Shown in pieces: positions 1 through 14,788 of a stretch of DNA of 14,788 nucleotides (positions are counted from its first letter, which is position 1; every line of letters starts with the position of its first letter). This stretch comes from a bacterium (lineage in GTDB: Bacteria > CAIWAD01), in the NCBI GenBank assembly GCA_030429345.1, contig JAUIFJ010000053.1:1-14788 (forward strand). The letters run 5' to 3'. Position numbers and translations under genes: made by a program. The notes under the pieces were generated by a model, which saw only the letters and a list, made by a program, of their open reading frames with translations, did not search any database and was not told where the DNA came from.

Positions 1-1032
1 GTGGTTCCTGGTCTGGATGTGATCCTGGCCGATGAGGTGGGTGCGCATCACGTCCCCCAGTTCTTCCTTCCTGCGGTAGAGGATTTTTGCCGCGTTGTTC
101 ATCCGCTCGTATTCCTCTGCCACGGCCGTGACGTCCATGGGGTCTATTTGCGCCTGGGGCAGCCCCTGATCGACGATCTGGCGCCACAGCGGGCAGGCGT
201 GCCGGTGTTCGCAGTATCCGCAGTTCTTGTTCAGCTGTGGCCTGAATTCCCTGGTGGACTCGATCTTGCGGACCAGGCCGACGATTTCGGTGAAAGCCTG
301 GTTCAGCTGCTCGGGACTGCGGGTGGTGCGCTGGTTTATCCCGGGGTGTCTGAGCATCACGAACTCGATGTCCACCGGGGTCTCGGGATGGACGTTGAGC
401 ACCGTGCTGTCCCGGACGGCCAGCTCGTAGATACTTGCTTGCCTGGACCTCCTCAGCTCATCGTGTGTGAAGAGCAATCTGCTGGACTTGTAGTCCACGA
501 TGCGGACGGTGTCATCGCCTCGGTGTTCTAGACGATCGATGTAGCCTCGGATCCCCACATCGCCTTCCAGGTCTTCCAGGATCAGCTGGAAGGGCCACTC
601 GAGTCCACGGATGGACTGGGCGTCCACCAGTTCGGTGGGCAGCCAGTGTTTGAGGATCTCCTGTGCCTCGGTCAGGACTGCTGCACCTGCGGACGGGTCT
701 TCTGCAAATGCCTGGTTCAGCATGTCATAGTACAGGTGTGCTTCCTTGACCACTCGGCCGGAGTGTCCGCCTGCCCACAGTTCCTGGGTTGTGAGTTCCA
801 GGCACCGGTGCAGCAGGGTTCCGAGTGGCAGGGGTCCCGTGGGGTTCTCGACCACCTGGTGCTCGATGCCCAGCTTGGGGTCGATGTACCGGGCTTTATA
901 GGCCTGTGGGCAGTTGCAGAAGAGGTCGATTGACGAATGGGAGTGGAACTCCCTGTGGTGTGTGTATCCTTTCGGCAGCTGTGGTTCCAGCATCTGTGTC
1001 TTGGGCAGCTGCAGGGTCTGGGTCTGTGACAT
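1..1032 (-). CDS. Cas4/RecB-like PD-(D/E)XK nuclease, 3' end cut by window
   Basis: The 344 visible residues contain the motifs of the PD-(D/E)XK exonuclease superfamily: GTLLH (His75), GYIDRLE (Asp166), VDYKSS (Asp180 and Lys182) and a downstream Gln199/Tyr202 pair. Cys39 or Cys41 in LFCNCPQAYKARYI, together with Cys271, Cys274 and Cys280 in CGYCEHRHACPLW, match the four-cysteine iron-sulfur cluster of Cas4 and AddB-type nucleases. Such proteins digest DNA ends, and in phages they usually belong to recombination modules. The ATG at 1032 is preceded by AAAGGA six bases upstream. The frame stays open to the left edge, so the C terminus is missing. No cas1, cas2 or repeat array is visible, so this is not evidence of a CRISPR locus. 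The SbcC-like ATPase at the right end may be its partner (inference). The superfamily call is firm; the exact subfamily is not. Confidence 0.88.
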   Translation of the reverse strand, partial: MSQTQTLQLPKTQMLEPQLPKGYTHHREFHSHSSIDLFCNCPQAYKARYIDPKLGIEHQVVENPTGPLPLGTLLHRCLELTTQELWAGGHSGRVVKEAHLYYDMLNQAFAEDPSAGAAVLTEAQEILKHWLPTELVDAQSIRGLEWPFQLILEDLEGDVGIRGYIDRLEHRGDDTVRIVDYKSSRLLFTHDELRRSRQASIYELAVRDSTVLNVHPETPVDIEFVMLRHPGINQRTTRSPEQLNQAFTEIVGLVRKIESTREFRPQLNKNCGYCEHRHACPLWRQIVDQGLPQAQIDPMDVTAVAEEYERMNNAAKILYRRKEELGDVMRTHLIGQDHIQTRNH

Positions 1033-5310: not shown

Positions 5311-5612
5311 GCGTTCCTCGCTATTTCTTGGTCGGGTCGATTGATCTTCAACACTACCTGGCCGGACTCCCAAAGACGCACCGGCTCCGAGCAGTCCTGC
5401 CGAATCAGCGACCTGGCCGGCCTGCGCCGCAATTCGATCACTGCCCACCAGCCGGGACACGGTCCCTTCGAAGCCTCGTGCTGCGCGTGACCGTTGGCCA
5501 GATCGTAGGTGTCGAACACGGCCTCGCGGATGTCTACAAACGACTCCGGAACATCCGCGCCAAGCGGCAAAGGTGCGGCCCATTGGCCGTGGTACTTTTG
5601 GTAGGCGCTCAT
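5307..5612 (-). CDS. Hypothetical protein
   Basis: This is a 101-residue protein beginning MSAYQKYHGQWAAPLPLGAD. It contains a Trp-rich centre (GPCPGWWAVIELRRRPARS) and ends in a basic stretch. I do not recognise it. Both its ends are coupled: its ATG at 5612 overlaps the methyltransferase stop as ATGA, and its stop overlaps the DUF3850-like gene. AGGGAAG lies ahead of the start. Its position directly behind the methyltransferase could suggest a related role, such as modulating modification, but nothing in the sequence shows that. Confidence 0.65.
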   Translation of the reverse strand: MSAYQKYHGQWAAPLPLGADVPESFVDIREAVFDTYDLANGHAQHEASKGPCPGWWAVIELRRRPARSLIRQDCSEPVRLWESGQVVLKINRPDQEIARNA

Positions 5613-6526
5613 CCCGCTTCCCTGATCGCCCTGATCATATCAGCCGCCACGGGCGGGCACACGGCGTTGCCCAGCAAGTGCACGGCGAGCCTCCGATTGG
5701 CCGGTAACTGGTAGCCCTCGGGAAATCCCATTCCAGCGCGCACTTCGTCGGGAAGGAGCATCCGCATCCGGTTTCCGTCAACGATGGCCCAGCGATCCCG
5801 GGTAGTCAGTGTGCCGATAGGCCGCTCGAGGCTTCGGCCACCGTGCTCGTTGCCGTAGTAAGCAATCAGGAATCGCGGGCCGAGATTGCGTCGGCCGCGG
5901 GAAATGCGCGCGAGCGTGGCCGCGGCGCGCCCTGTGCGGCGAACCGGGGACCAGTCGCCCCCAGACAAGTCCACGATAGTGGAGGCAGCTGTGTACTCCC
6001 GGCTGGGTAAGTTGAGGCTCAGCGGCGCGCGGCTGCGGGTTCCGACGATGAACAGCCGGCGGCGATGCTGGGGAACCCCGTGATCCGCGGCGTCGACGAT
6101 CATGGGCATCAGGCTGTAGCCCAGCGCTTCCAGTGCCTGGCGCCAAGCGGGGAACAGCTGCCACTTCGCGAACTCGGGGACATTCTCGACCAGCAGGACC
6201 GGCGGCCGGTGGCACTCGGCTGCGGATACGACAGCCCAGGCGGTCGACCGTGTGGCGTCATGATGCGGCCTGTCCTTGCCCCTTGCCCGGCTGTGTCCCT
6301 GGCAGGCGGGGCTGGCCAGCAGCAGGTCATGCGCGGGAACCTGGGTCCAGTCTGCCTGATGCAAGTCCTGGCAGCTGTGCTCGGTTTCCGGGTGGTTCGC
6401 CTGGTGCGCCTCGACAGCCGCAGGCCAGTGATTTGCCGCCCACACGACCTCAACGCCGGCCATCCGTGCGCCCTCACTGAATCCACCCGCGCCGGCGAAC
6501 AGGTCAATCGCCTTGAGATTGCTCAT
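5609..6526 (-). CDS. DNA (cytosine-5) methyltransferase
   Basis: This 305-residue enzyme transfers a methyl group from S-adenosylmethionine to cytosine C5 in DNA. All key motifs are present in order: motif I IDLFAGAGGFS (7-17) for the cofactor, the catalytic Cys75 in SPACQGHS (motif IV, with Ala-Cys instead of the usual Pro-Cys), ENV (114-116, motif VI), QHRRRLFIVG (153-162, motif VIII), a short target-recognition region, RPIGTLTTRD (235-244, motif IX) and GNAVCPPVA (286-294, motif X). The protein is compact, as in many phage-borne orphan enzymes. No restriction endonuclease is recognised beside it, so it more likely protects the element from host restriction or marks its DNA. AGGA lies about nine bases ahead of the ATG at 6526. 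Its target site cannot be read from the sequence. Confidence 0.95.
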   Translation of the reverse strand: MSNLKAIDLFAGAGGFSEGARMAGVEVVWAANHWPAAVEAHQANHPETEHSCQDLHQADWTQVPAHDLLLASPACQGHSRARGKDRPHHDATRSTAWAVVSAAECHRPPVLLVENVPEFAKWQLFPAWRQALEALGYSLMPMIVDAADHGVPQHRRRLFIVGTRSRAPLSLNLPSREYTAASTIVDLSGGDWSPVRRTGRAAATLARISRGRRNLGPRFLIAYYGNEHGGRSLERPIGTLTTRDRWAIVDGNRMRMLLPDEVRAGMGFPEGYQLPANRRLAVHLLGNAVCPPVAADMIRAIREAG

Positions 6527-7648: not shown

Positions 7649-7666
7649 CAGGTAGTCCTCCAGTTC

Positions 7667-7714
7667 GGGGTGTCTACCTACGTATGGGGCAAGCAAATCC
7701 TGATTTGTGACAGG
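7667..7714 (-). promoter_or_regulatory. Conserved 48-bp promoter/operator element, copy A
   Basis: This segment matches 13120-13167 at 41 of 48 positions. Its minus-strand end lies 18 bp before the start codon at 7648. Shared blocks are TACGTATGGGGC and TTTGTGACAGG on the plus strand. The TACGTA core could serve as a -10 box (read on the minus strand), and the CCTGTCACAAA block as an upstream binding site. No good sigma-70 -35 match is seen, so an activator-dependent or element-specific promoter is likely (inference). Confidence 0.65.
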
Positions 7715-10560: not shown

Positions 10561-10938
10561 TTACAGTCCCAGCAGCTGCTGCAGGACCACCATGCCGATC
10601 AGGACGCCCACCAGGTCGACGACCAGGTCTGACCAGCTGAAGCCATCGGCGCGCAGAAACTGGTCCCTCAAGTCCCCGAAGGGCCGCTCGTACCACAGGG
10701 GTTTGAAGCCATCGCCCACTTCCCAGAGCAGACCCAGCAGGAGCGCCCAGCCCGCGGCCGGAAGCTCGGGCCGTCCTGCCCCCGACTTGTAGACCAGCAG
10801 TCCGATCCCCACACAGAGGGCAAGGCTGCCAAACAGGTGGATCCAGGTGTGGCGATCGAGGACAAAGCGCCGGTTGAACCGGAAGGGCATGGTTCCCAGG
10901 TGGAAGAGAGTCGTGATCCATCGCGGCGGGCTACTCAT
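10561..10938 (-). CDS. YfiM/VanZ-like small membrane protein
   Basis: This is a 125-residue protein with hydrophobic segments at about 33-50, 62-73 and 104-123. The pattern WEVGDGFKPLW (72-82), followed by GFSWSDLVVDLVGVLIG (99-115), resembles the E-x2-D...FSWxDLxxDxxG signature of the YfiM (DUF2279) family, relatives of VanZ-like membrane proteins. Their function is not known. The ATG at 10938 sits eight bases inside the end of the HU-like gene and is preceded by GGAGGT at ideal spacing. Its place between DNA-binding genes is unusual. The gene is firm; the family is a moderate call. Confidence 0.78.
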   Translation of the reverse strand: MSSPPRWITTLFHLGTMPFRFNRRFVLDRHTWIHLFGSLALCVGIGLLVYKSGAGRPELPAAGWALLLGLLWEVGDGFKPLWYERPFGDLRDQFLRADGFSWSDLVVDLVGVLIGMVVLQQLLGL

Positions 10939-11248
10939 CGGCCACCTCCTTCGGTTTCATGCGACGTTCCGGACTGGGTGGGATCCGCTCCTTCAGGCCA
11001 CGCTTCACGGACTCGGCGGGATAGAAGACCAGGCGTGTATGCGAGTCTGCGAATCTGCTCCTTCGACGTTCGACCAATTGGAAGCGGCCCAGGTTGAGGA
11101 GTGTCAGGCTGTCCTGCGTTTCCAGCTCGTCCATCAAGTCCAGCATGGCCTGGGTAGTCTGGGTCAGGATGGTCTGACACTTCTCCACCGAGCTCGCAAC
11201 CCCCAGCTCTTTCATCCGGACAGCCAAGTCGCGGTTCTTGTATCTCAT
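10931..11248 (-). CDS. HU/IHF-like DNA-binding protein with a short arm
   Basis: This is a 105-residue protein. The first 45 residues form the helix pair of the HU/IHF fold (SVEKCQTILTQTTQAMLDLM), followed by a LTLLNLGRFQLVERRRSR strand region corresponding to the L-x-G-FGxF-x-V segment of HU, then TRLVFYPAESVKRGLKERI, the equivalent of the closing strand and helix. The beta-arm between them is about ten residues shorter than in HU and lacks the usual Arg-Asn-Pro tip that kinks DNA, so bending may be weak or altered. A basic tail of about 20 residues is added. The ATG at 11248 has TTTGGAG upstream; an open frame further back shows no ribosome site. Confidence 0.78.
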   Translation of the reverse strand: MRYKNRDLAVRMKELGVASSVEKCQTILTQTTQAMLDLMDELETQDSLTLLNLGRFQLVERRRSRFADSHTRLVFYPAESVKRGLKERIPPSPERRMKPKEVADE

Positions 11249-11264
11249 CCGTGCTCCAAAATGT

Positions 11265-11322
11265 GGCCCGGCAACCGTCCCTCCACCTCCCCCCCGGAAA
11301 GTGTTGTTCAGGCTGCCGGGCC
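11265..11322 (-). promoter_or_regulatory. Long-loop hairpin in the leader of the HU-like gene
   Basis: GGCCCGGCA at 11265-11273 pairs with TGCCGGGCC at 11314-11322. On the minus-strand RNA the loop carries a G-rich run (GGGGGGGAGGTGGAGGG). The 3' arm ends a few bases before the ribosome site of the HU-like gene. ACATTTT follows the stem, so it may be a weak terminator or a control of translation. Confidence 0.5.
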
Positions 11323-11330
11323 CAACAAGA

Positions 11331-12353
11331 CTAGTCGCCGAAGGGGTCGAGGGTGCCTTCCTCGTCGCCGCCGGCGCCCTGGTCATTGGTCACTTCATCT
11401 TCATGCGCATCACCTCCATCCGGGCTGGATTCCTGTTCCTCTTCGGAGGCCGGTTCCCCCGCCCGGGGCTGGGCGACTGCCGGGTCGGAATCCACTTCCC
11501 CGGGCGGGTTGGCCGGCTCTTCGGGATTGTTCTCCACCACCGGGCGCGGCGTGTGCGTCACAACCGTGATCCGCCCGGTCTTCTTGTCCAGCTCGGCGCT
11601 GTACTGGAATTCGGATTCGAAGAGCGGATACTTCTCCCTGAGCTCGTTGATCCGCTCCACCGGTTCCAGCAGCCGCTGGATCTGCTCATCCACCAACTTG
11701 GCCGTCGACTGCATGCGGATCACGTCATTCATCTTCTCCGCAGTCAGCAGGCAGGTCTTGGCGTTGTCGCGCGCATCCAGCAGCTGGCCGAACACAGTGC
11801 GCCAGCCGCGGGTGTGCGTCATCTCCTGCAGGTCCAGCAGCTCCTGGACCAGGTCCTGGTAGTCGCGTGTGGCAGCCGGCGGCGGTCCTTCCGGCTTTTC
11901 GGGCTCCTCATCCTCCTCCGGCTCTTCCGGCGGATCCGTTTCTTCCTGCTCCTCGGCTTCCGCCGCCTGGGCCTGCTCCTCCGACTCTTCGGCTTCCGGG
12001 TCCGTGGCAGCCGGTTCTGCCACATCCTCCGTAGCGGCCAGCTTTTCGTCTTCCTCGTCCGGTGTGTCATCCAGCTCCGTTGCCGGGGCACCAGCGGCTT
12101 CGCCGCCAGCCTCCAGCTGTTCCAGCCAGCTCTGGTCCACGAGGACCTCGCGCGGCTTGTTGTCAAAGGGTGTGACAACCCCTTGCTGCTCCAGCAGGTC
12201 GACCAGCTTGCCCGCCCGGCTGTACCCGATTTTCAATTCACGCTGGAGCAGGCTTATGGCGCAGCGCTGGGTCTGGATCACAATCCGGGCCGCTTCGAGG
12301 AACAGGTCATCCTGCTCCATCGCCGGGGCCAGTGTTTCAGTCTGTCCTTCCAT
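11331..12353 (-). CDS. Free-standing FtsK gamma-like winged-helix protein with acidic linkers
   Basis: This is a 340-residue protein. Residues 13-73 match the gamma domain at the C terminus of the FtsK DNA translocase: DLFLEAARIVIQ, then ISLLQRELKIGYSRAGKLVD, LLEQQGVV and PREVL. In FtsK this winged helix recognises the GGGNAGGG KOPS sequence and activates the XerD recombinase. No motor domain or Walker motif is present. A long Glu/Asp/Ala/Pro linker (84-160) follows, then a helical segment (163-247, DYQDLVQELLDLQEM onward) and an acidic tail to residue 340. The ATG at 12353 has GAGGA five bases upstream and overlaps the end of the preceding gene by 17 bp. It may load the gamma domain on DNA sites or steer host Xer recombination (inference). 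Confidence 0.85.
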   Translation of the reverse strand: MEGQTETLAPAMEQDDLFLEAARIVIQTQRCAISLLQRELKIGYSRAGKLVDLLEQQGVVTPFDNKPREVLVDQSWLEQLEAGGEAAGAPATELDDTPDEEDEKLAATEDVAEPAATDPEAEESEEQAQAAEAEEQEETDPPEEPEEDEEPEKPEGPPPAATRDYQDLVQELLDLQEMTHTRGWRTVFGQLLDARDNAKTCLLTAEKMNDVIRMQSTAKLVDEQIQRLLEPVERINELREKYPLFESEFQYSAELDKKTGRITVVTHTPRPVVENNPEEPANPPGEVDSDPAVAQPRAGEPASEEEQESSPDGGDAHEDEVTNDQGAGGDEEGTLDPFGD

Positions 12354-12837
12354 CGGGGTCCTCATGATTTGGAATGGTGTGTGCGGCATGGTTTGCCAGG
12401 CTGAGACCACAGTCTTTCGTGGCCTCCAGGGATTTCAGCGCATCGGCCAAGAGCAGGCTCTCCCGGTCGGCCGGCACATCCATCACCGACAGGCATGCCT
12501 GTGCGTTGGCCACGTGGGTCAGCAGGTGGGTGATCTGGGTCAGGATTGGAAGGCACAGCCCGTCTACCGTGCGCCGGTGTGCTAGGCGGATTTCCCGCCG
12601 TGCTTCCTGCAAGGAGATCCGGCCCGTGGCACAGGCGCTGTGCAGCAGTTCCAGCAGCATCTGTGCTGCCTGGGAATCCACACACGCAGGCCTGAGGGCC
12701 TCCAGCTGGGCCAGGAACTTCTGTGTGGTGCGCTGGCCTAGTCTCTGGGGACGAATTGCAACCCAGGTGATGCCAGCGCCTAACAGCATGCAACACAGGG
12801 CAGCCAGAACGGCATGGGGCGTCGTGACCTCAATCAT
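12337..12837 (-). CDS. Membrane-anchored hypothetical protein
   Basis: This is a 166-residue protein. The N terminus (HAVLAALCCMLLGAGITWVA, residues 8-27) is a single membrane helix, and the rest is a helical soluble domain with several Cys and His residues (LLELLHSACATG, ITHLLTHVANAQACL). The ATG at 12837 has GAGGT at good spacing and overlaps the end of the excisionase-like gene by eight bases. A longer frame upstream is a shadow of that gene. It is not recognised. Its position between the excisionase-like and FtsK gamma-like genes may mean a joint role at the membrane or division site, which is only a guess. Confidence 0.7.
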   Translation of the reverse strand: MIEVTTPHAVLAALCCMLLGAGITWVAIRPQRLGQRTTQKFLAQLEALRPACVDSQAAQMLLELLHSACATGRISLQEARREIRLAHRRTVDGLCLPILTQITHLLTHVANAQACLSVMDVPADRESLLLADALKSLEATKDCGLSLANHAAHTIPNHEDPDGRTD

Positions 12838-13102
12838 CGGCCACCTCGTGCGTCCGGCTTTCGATGAAGTCCAGTACATCGGTCAGTCGGTACAGCACCT
12901 GGCGCCCGAGTTTGGTGACCGGGATCTCGTACCGGCCGGTGCACCGCCACTTGGCCAGCGTCTGCGGCTTTTGCTGCAGGATCTGCGCGGTCTCCACATC
13001 GGTCAGGAAGACCGGGGGGTGGTCCAGTTTGTGGCCTAGGGCGCGGAGAACCGCCAGCTGCAGGCGTGCCTGCCGGGTTTCAGTCTGGATGGAATCCTGC
13101 AT
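12830..13102 (-). CDS. AlpA/excisionase-like HTH protein
   Basis: This is a 90-residue protein. Residues 32-82 fit the MerR-like HTH_17 domain of excisionases and AlpA regulators: FLTDVETAQILQQKPQTLAK, W52, then a GRYEIPVTKLGRQVLYRLTD wing and VLDFIESR. Such proteins direct excision or act as transcription activators. The ATG at 13102 has GAGG five bases upstream and lies just downstream of the conserved 48-bp element, making it the first gene of the second unit. A short N-terminal helix of 30 residues precedes the HTH. No integrase gene is seen next to it, so a regulatory role is equally likely. Confidence 0.8.
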   Translation of the reverse strand: MQDSIQTETRQARLQLAVLRALGHKLDHPPVFLTDVETAQILQQKPQTLAKWRCTGRYEIPVTKLGRQVLYRLTDVLDFIESRTHEVADD

Positions 13103-13119
13103 GTAGGCCTCGAATTCTG

Positions 13120-13167
13120 GGGGTGCCTACATACGTATGGGGCGAAGAAATTCTGTTTTGTGACAGG
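13120..13167 (-). promoter_or_regulatory. Conserved 48-bp promoter/operator element, copy B
   Basis: It matches 7667-7714 at 41 of 48 positions. Its minus-strand end lies 17 bp before the start codon at 13102, almost the same spacing as copy A. The perfect palindrome CATACGTATG is intact here and one base short in copy A. The TTTGTGACAGG block is fully conserved. It is probably the start signal for the unit running to 8945. Confidence 0.65.
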
Positions 13168-13200: not shown

Positions 13201-13929
13201 CTAGCAGCAGTAGTGGCAGACGGCGTCCAGGAAAGTGGTCCCGGTTTCATCGGATCCGAAGGCGGCCATCATGTCCCAGCTGGCTTTCGTTGGATCATCG
13301 CCCATTCGGCCCTGGCGAAGACGCAGGCCGTGATGCAGTCCGATCGCCGTTTCAAGCACCAGGTGGGTTATCCTGCTGCCCAAGGCTCGCCGAGGACTGA
13401 GTTGATCCAGATTCGGTGCCTGCTGCTGCACATGGTGCTGGGAAAGCTGGCGTGTGCTCTCAAGCTGTGCAGGATGTGTTTCAAGCAGCAGGCGCAGCCG
13501 CTGCCCAATCTCCAGCTGCGGGTTGCCCGCCAGGACCAGCAGCTGCTGCGTCGACCGCCGGGTCCGCCAGCCAGTCTTTCGGGGCATGTCCCGCCGGATG
13601 GACCAGGCACTAAGCGCAATGGCCTGTGTGGCAGCCTTCAATCGCCGATCCAGCTGCAACTTGTTCCACGCCTGCAGCAGCAGCTTCATCCGCCGGCGGC
13701 GCTTTCTCTCTTCCTCGGGATCTTCGCGCGTTGACCGGTTCATCAGCAGGTAGGCGCCGCGGAAGGTCTGGTCCGCTATCCCTGCAGCATGGGTCAGCAG
13801 GTGATTTGCATCACGCACTTGGTCCAGCAGGTCCATCAAGTCCATGACCTCGGATGTAGCCCAGCGGGCGGGCCGCCCGCCAGGCCAGCGATCGATACGC
13901 TCGAAGGGGTCAGACAGCTTGCTGGACAC
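13201..13929 (-). CDS. Hypothetical helical protein with a CxxCC tail
   Basis: This is a 242-residue, largely helical protein of unknown function. A basic stretch at about 72-81 (EEERKRRRRMK) and several Arg-rich helices suggest nucleic-acid contact, and it ends in DAVCHYCC. The GTG at 13929 has AGGAGG six bases upstream and overlaps the end of the ATPase gene by 20 bp, so it is in the same transcript. A role beside the ATPase in DNA processing is possible but not shown. Confidence 0.72.
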   Translation of the reverse strand: MSSKLSDPFERIDRWPGGRPARWATSEVMDLMDLLDQVRDANHLLTHAAGIADQTFRGAYLLMNRSTREDPEEERKRRRRMKLLLQAWNKLQLDRRLKAATQAIALSAWSIRRDMPRKTGWRTRRSTQQLLVLAGNPQLEIGQRLRLLLETHPAQLESTRQLSQHHVQQQAPNLDQLSPRRALGSRITHLVLETAIGLHHGLRLRQGRMGDDPTKASWDMMAAFGSDETGTTFLDAVCHYCC

Positions 13930-14788
13930 CGGGATCCTCCTGCCATGGGGTCTCCACTTCGCCGTCTACGATGTGGATGCCGATCCGTTCGCTGGTCGCG
14001 AGCTCCATCAGGACGAAGAACCCGTGCTCCTCAGCCCAGGCCTGAACCCGGGCACGTGTGCCTTCGTCCATCATCGAAGCCTCCTGCAGGGACAGGAACT
14101 TGAGCCGCGGGTGCATCGCCGCCCCCATGGCCAGGCTGATCTCCAGCCTGCGCGCACTGCTTGCCTGCTCGAAGGGCCGGCCTTCGAAATAGACCCCGCC
14201 GTCCTCGCGAATCTCCAGTCCCTCGATCGGAAGCTTTCCACCCGCAAGAACGGTCCGGATCTGGGTATCGATGACAGACAGGTCGTTGGTCAGGCTTTCC
14301 ACCCTGGACTCGTGCTCCGCCAGCTCCTCCTTCGCCTCTCGGTATTCCCGAGCCTGCCGGGCCTCCAGGTTCAGCTGGTCGACACGGGCCAACCGATCCT
14401 CGAGCTCCTGTGTATCCGGTTCGACGAGCGCAGCAATCACTTCCTTCTGGGCTTTCCCACTCTCCTTCACCTGCTGCTGGCGTGACCGCAAGTCCTCAAG
14501 GCGAGCCTGCAGTGCGGCAAGCTCTGCCTCTGCGTCCGTGATCTGCTGTCCAAGCTCCGCGTGCTCGGCGTACAGCTGCTGCAGCTTCTGACGCTGCTCC
14601 TCGTTCTGCCGGCGCTGCTCCCGCCGCTGATCCAGCTGGGTCAGCAGCTCCTTCGTGTTCACCTCTTCCACCTGGCCGCCCGGTCGGGGCTGGGGCAACC
14701 GATCCACCGCGGCCTGGGCATTGCGGACCAGGGTGTTGGCCGCCGTGCGCTCGTCGTACACCACCTGGCGCTTGTCCTTCAGCTCCTT
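13910..14788 (-). CDS. SbcC/Rad50-like coiled-coil ATPase, 5' end cut by window
   Basis: The 292 visible residues are the C-terminal part of an SMC/Rad50-type ATPase. Residues up to about 190 form a long coiled coil (QRREQRRQNEEQRQKLQQLY and similar). Then SSARRLEISLAMGAAMHPRL corresponds to the ABC signature region, and LKFLSLQEASMMDEGTRARV to Walker B and D-loop, followed by an AWAEEHGFFVLMEL strand. The same degenerate ending is known in phage AAA proteins found with recombination nucleases. The Walker A motif would lie upstream of the window. No CxxC zinc hook is visible in this part. It probably handles DNA ends together with a nuclease; the Cas4-like nuclease at the left end is a candidate partner. 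Confidence 0.83.
   Translation of the reverse strand, partial: KELKDKRQVVYDERTAANTLVRNAQAAVDRLPQPRPGGQVEEVNTKELLTQLDQRREQRRQNEEQRQKLQQLYAEHAELGQQITDAEAELAALQARLEDLRSRQQQVKESGKAQKEVIAALVEPDTQELEDRLARVDQLNLEARQAREYREAKEELAEHESRVESLTNDLSVIDTQIRTVLAGGKLPIEGLEIREDGGVYFEGRPFEQASSARRLEISLAMGAAMHPRLKFLSLQEASMMDEGTRARVQAWAEEHGFFVLMELATSERIGIHIVDGEVETPWQEDPGVQQAV

Follow-up and report, generated by a model that had tools for sequence, protein, structure and literature searches.

A prophage protein that joins a motorless FtsK gamma domain to a conserved helical domain in a replication and recombination region

The gamma domain of FtsK (Pfam PF09397) is known from solved structures of Pseudomonas aeruginosa (2ve8 and 2ve9) and Escherichia coli (2j5p). 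In E. coli, KOPS recognition involves R1300, E1303, and E1306 (PMC2680272), while a nine-residue stretch, RQFRIGYNR, suffices for XerD activation when fused to XerC; R1289 is critical for this activity, and E184 of XerD is its partner (PMC5052618). Gamma domains also occur in phages. The small terminase of Bacillus phages Sam46 and Sam112 bears an N-terminal gamma fusion, and what single gamma genes do in phages has been described as unknown (PMC8190038). XafT of TLC phage, as cited in PMC9765430, activates XerD without FtsK.

The DNA considered here (the window) is 14,788 nucleotides long and makes up the entire contig C57, one of the 92 contigs of a genome (G000) from a sparsely sampled phylum, for which five genomes were present in the comparison set. 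An open reading frame on the minus strand encodes a protein of 340 amino acids (coding 11334-12353, ATG at 12353, stop codon 11331-11333), which is composed of the following parts:

11331-12353, minus strand: whole gene, 340 aa, comprising gamma, an acidic linker, a helical domain, and an acidic tail
12138-12317, minus strand: FtsK gamma winged helix, residues 13-72, assigned by Pfam, predicted fold, and alignment of the XerD- and KOPS-contact residues
11880-12119, minus strand: acidic linker, residues 79-158, assigned by D/E count
11538-11870, minus strand: helical domain, residues 162-272 (approximate limits), three-helix fold with a beta hairpin, representing the conserved family core
11334-11537, minus strand: acidic tail, residues 273-340, ending in DPFGD, fast-changing, assigned by composition

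By codon score the gene ranks first in the window, and its helical domain, compared with that of the related copy on contig C43, shows a pN of 0.007 against a pS of 0.149 (13 synonymous and 2 nonsynonymous changes); for both reasons it is a real gene, not a chance frame. A plus-strand reading frame at 11238-12404 is regarded as spurious. The tail differs between the same two copies by one synonymous and five nonsynonymous changes. Thus, strong purifying selection acts on the helical domain but not on the tail.

By sequence and predicted structure, residues 13-72 are a genuine FtsK gamma winged helix. The original prediction, which had read a gamma signature in residues 13-73, is borne out by the Pfam FtsK_gamma match to residues 13-72 (79.4 bits against a gathering cut-off of 30.6; E 1.6e-22), and phmmer against the solved FtsK gamma chains gave a best E of 3.5e-13. 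An AlphaFold2 model made with 19 viral gamma sequences as input shows the winged helix at residues 21-70 (block-mean pLDDT 87-93), and all 13 Foldseek matches in the PDB with E<=0.001 are FtsK gamma domains, including the KOPS-bound 2ve9. In line with the same prediction, the translocase motor is missing: no RecA-like or FtsK/SpoIIIE ATPase was found in the 340-aa protein, and gamma is its only Pfam family above the cut-off. The host's full-length FtsK is encoded by a separate gene on contig C13. The acidic and helical parts that had been read beside gamma are there as well, with 34 D/E and 2 K/R among the 80 residues of the linker, 22 D/E and 1 K/R among the 68 residues of the tail, and a three-helix model between them. 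Hence, the protein shares with the PF09397 proteins of known structure the winged helix, the QRxLKIGY core, and the R1289 equivalent, but differs from them in having no motor, in bearing gamma at the N-terminus, and in having lysine at the R1300 position.

This lysine deserves comment. The window equivalents of R1300, E1303, and E1306 are K49, D52, and E55, one identical and two conservative, so most of the DNA-reading surface appears to be retained, one conservative change being unusual. The gamma of the host FtsK is 60% identical over 58 columns and has S/R/D at positions 1296/1300/1303, where the window gamma has S/K/D; lysine at the R1300 position was seen in none of the gammas compared (the best 80 of 215 viral and 19 bacterial ones), and therefore the sequence specificity of the domain may differ. 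The XerD-contact stretch reads RELKIGYSR, in which R38 corresponds to R1289; since almost every gamma has this arginine, R38 is not diagnostic of Xer activation.

It was also suggested in the original prediction that the protein might guide or block the host FtsK, with gamma sitting on host or phage KOPS and blocking or loading the translocase, for instance as a means of shielding phage DNA from the pump at the septum. A motorless gamma could indeed bind KOPS without translocating, acidic scaffolds are typical of inhibitors, and GGGNAGGG is scarce in the window; this scarcity, however, rests on a count of 1 against 4.5 expected, and in the host GGGNAGGG is not polar toward dif. Furthermore, the conserved part of the protein is the helical domain and not gamma, and its company consists of recombination genes, so we consider a role as an FtsK decoy or guide unlikely. 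A search for enriched octamers in the element contigs gave no KOPS-like winner, and derivation of a host KOPS from polarity around dif revealed nothing beyond coding-strand bias. Since GGGNAGGG may not be the octamer read by the window gamma, the KOPS counts neither favour nor oppose DNA targeting.

The helical domain is modelled as three helices and a beta hairpin with a mean pLDDT of 83.5; aligning the gamma and helical fragments together misaligned them, and this alignment was kept out of folding. No Foldseek match with E<=0.001 was found for this fold, and the best VIA Z of 5.4 is uninformative for helical bundles. The domain is nevertheless the conserved core of the family. It is present in 3 of the 386 genomes searched; scans of the genome contigs collection with the helical domain gave no relative, nor did the full-length 340-aa protein find any among viral contigs. 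Four loci of the sister genome G001 code for the domain (32-38% identity), and the order of ATPase, 242-aa protein, HTH_17, and helical protein is the same as in the window as far as the contigs reach, with the HU-like neighbour kept in two contigs. These syntenic orthologues carry no gamma, their N-terminus being a short unstructured stretch, though the DPF motif of the tail is present in them too; the sole gamma found in G001 lies inside an 873-residue frame of FtsK size. A distant helical relative in G002 likewise lacks gamma. Among viral sequences, the helical relatives L076, L077, and L079 are encoded directly upstream of a RuvC-like resolvase gene, and two of the three loci also have SSB-like and annealing-protein-like genes at a greater distance upstream, while L078 is found near an SbcC-like ATPase (phrog_1499), YqaJ, and RecT; none of the four carries gamma. 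Because helical relatives are conserved without gamma, it may be concluded that gamma was either gained in, or lost from, a pre-existing protein of a phage recombination module.

The window itself is the replication and recombination region of a prophage of the tailed-phage type, several related copies of which are present in one genome. The immediate surroundings of the gamma gene are as follows:

1-1032, minus strand: PD-(D/E)XK exonuclease, partial, cut by the contig end (full in C43)
10931-11248, minus strand: HU-like gene, 105 aa, downstream of the gamma gene (weak Pfam HU-CCDC81 match, 0.031)
12830-13102, minus strand: HTH_17 DNA-binding protein, member of the conserved gene order
13201-13929, minus strand: 242-aa protein, member of the conserved gene order
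13910-14788, minus strand: SbcC-like AAA ATPase, C-terminal part (phrog_1499), cut by the contig end (full in C76)

The product of 10931-11248 may be HU/IHF-like, judging from its sequence, and two sister contigs have a similar sequence next to the helical gene. Related copies in G000 are found on contigs C26, C43, C63, and C76, mostly with about 87-96% identity. The assembly breaks in copies of the element fall inside or near the gamma gene: C43 and C26 begin within it and C76 ends short of it, the contig ends not being exact matches to the window. The order of the element is a composite of several contigs; a complete copy was not seen on any one of them. It runs from a DinG-like helicase through an SF2 helicase with a RuvC-like part, a DnaG-like primase, the SbcC-like ATPase, the 242-aa protein, HTH_17, a 180-aa protein, the gamma protein, the HU-like protein, regulators, and a C5 methyltransferase to the PD-(D/E)XK exonuclease, beyond which lie a Xer-like integrase and the terminase large subunit. 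In C63 and C76, the DinG-like helicase, the RuvC-like SF2 helicase, and the primase stand directly upstream of the SbcC-like ATPase; C63 continues for 87 kb, and its gene content was taken from a part of it. In the window, the gamma gene lies between the SbcC-like ATPase and the exonuclease, and its membership of the module follows from guilt by association.

The original prediction also held that the protein may hijack dif/Xer recombination; gamma would then activate the host XerD at dif without FtsK, as XafT does, and dif would be the site of integration or excision of the element. The host does possess XerC/XerD-like proteins (contigs C9 and C75) and a single dif, ACTGCGCATAATACATATTATGTAAAC, at C25:51525-51551 in a 158-kb contig, and, along with R38 at the critical arginine, five of the nine residues of the minimal activating peptide (PMC5052618) are identical. 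However, the window contains neither a dif-like site within 3 mismatches nor a XerD half-site within one mismatch, and the dif contig has no similarity to the window, C26, C42, C43, C62, or C76. In addition, the element family has a Xer-like integrase of its own, about 290 aa long, which adjoins the terminase large subunit (G000:C43, about 1352-2224); copies in C42, C62, and C77 are 94-100% identical except for one 53% copy in C77. A 48% identical integrase in G001 and G002 is located 15-21 kb from a gamma-less helical protein on the same contig. Taken together, the lack of dif in the window, the clean dif contig, the element's own integrase, and its occurrence with gamma-less relatives make a hijack of dif very unlikely, and this part of the prediction is not supported. 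The element served by XafT relies on host Xer at dif, and the family in the window is set apart from it by an integrase of its own and by the lack of dif in the window. The pattern of a XafT-type Xer activation factor, whose element would integrate at dif with host Xer and lack its own integrase, does not fit the integrase of the related copies, the absence of dif from the window, and the lack of any dif-contig match in the element contigs tested, the window contig being incomplete.

Gamma might instead activate the element's own integrase and so switch integration, excision, or multimer resolution. This integrase is XerD-like (E 8.9e-27), and a Glu that both host Xer proteins lack aligns, as read by eye, with XerD E184. 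The integrase-bearing relatives without gamma argue against a gamma requirement for the element integrase, though, and among the best 80 of the 215 viral gamma loci an integrase of this type is found within 4 kb at only one; such a function is thus quite improbable.

These viral loci come from a scan of IMG/VR, in which 215 stretches were found to encode a gamma relative. In the best 80 of them, 79 gamma-containing frames have no Walker A motor motif, a fraction biased upward because the search seed included motorless phage sequences. RecT is encoded within 4 kb in 26 of the same best 80 of 215, which is a raw count without a background rate, and this set also includes an RdgC fusion (3.6e-105) and a fusion to a phage metallopeptidase. 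On the strength of these counts and of the published terminase fusion, motorless gamma can be called a recurrent phage theme. The RdgC fusion (L158) and the RecT-adjacent gammas (L097 and other members of phrog_6576) resemble the window protein in that a motorless gamma is on or beside phage recombination proteins, but their partner domains are different, and their gamma is central or C-terminal. Consequently, the novelty originally supposed has to be narrowed: the full architecture was not found elsewhere, and the helical partner domain is new here, whereas motorless phage gamma itself is common and partly described (PMC8190038). The small terminase of Sam46/Sam112 is likewise a phage protein with an N-terminal gamma and a second domain, which might suggest a small-terminase-like packaging protein whose gamma marks the pac site (PMC8190038). 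The partner there is a terminase domain, however, while in the window it is a helical domain of a recombination module; neither Pfam nor PHROGs reveals Terminase_2 or any other terminase domain in the protein, and the gene belongs to the replication module, with the terminase large subunit on the far side beside the integrase, so that a packaging role is extremely unlikely.

The reading we prefer, which has a slightly better than even chance of being correct, is that the protein serves the prophage replication/recombination module as an accessory subunit and carries a grafted DNA-address tag. The three-helix domain would be its working part and would probably contact a partner encoded nearby, with the SbcC-like ATPase, a Holliday-junction resolvase, or the exonuclease as candidates. 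We infer a tether: the N-terminal gamma would bind KOPS-like DNA of 8 bp and, by way of the flexible acidic linker, would keep the partner close to such sites on phage or host DNA undergoing replication. In favour of this proposal are the sequence and fold of gamma, the position of the gene between ATPase and exonuclease with helicases and primase nearby in C63 and C76, the gene order kept without gamma in G001, the resolvase, ATPase, YqaJ, and RecT genes near the viral helical relatives, the other motorless phage gammas near RecT or fused to RdgC, and the selection on the helical domain that is absent from the tail. Against it speak the lack of an enriched KOPS-like motif in the element and of a derivable host KOPS, the unmatched lysine at the R1300 position, a helical domain without a fold match, and a module membership that is guilt by association. 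The original interpretation as a whole is thus partly supported, and the protein probably serves phage recombination as an address tag rather than hijacking host dif; the company of RecT, RdgC, RuvC, and SbcC points to recombination. The protein bears on the function of lone phage gammas, an acknowledged open question (PMC8190038). Orthologues that share a gene order but differ in the presence of gamma offer a natural comparison for what gamma adds. A more general idea, that phages repeatedly attach gamma to recombination proteins and that the polar KOPS map of host or phage DNA sets the site or direction of phage recombination or replication, is speculative and rather doubtful; under it, the window protein would be a new type of tether whose cargo is a subunit of a recombination module.

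Several other features of the element were observed. A C5 cytosine DNA methyltransferase gene of the early region (window 5609-6526, minus strand) is kept in C43 and C26, and its counterpart in G001 is 72% identical. In the SF2 helicase L041 (G000:C63, 3949-6123, minus strand), residues 497-721 match the RuvC-like phrog_159, and hence this copy of the element possibly encodes a helicase-resolvase fusion. A 200-aa frame at the end of G000:C26 (L043, 12059-12661) resembles, by eye, an Eco29kI-type restriction endonuclease. Finally, an intergenic block of about 80% identity occurs twice in the window (7649-7714 and 13100-13167), upstream of separate gene groups, as well as in C43 and C63, and is possibly a shared promoter or operator.
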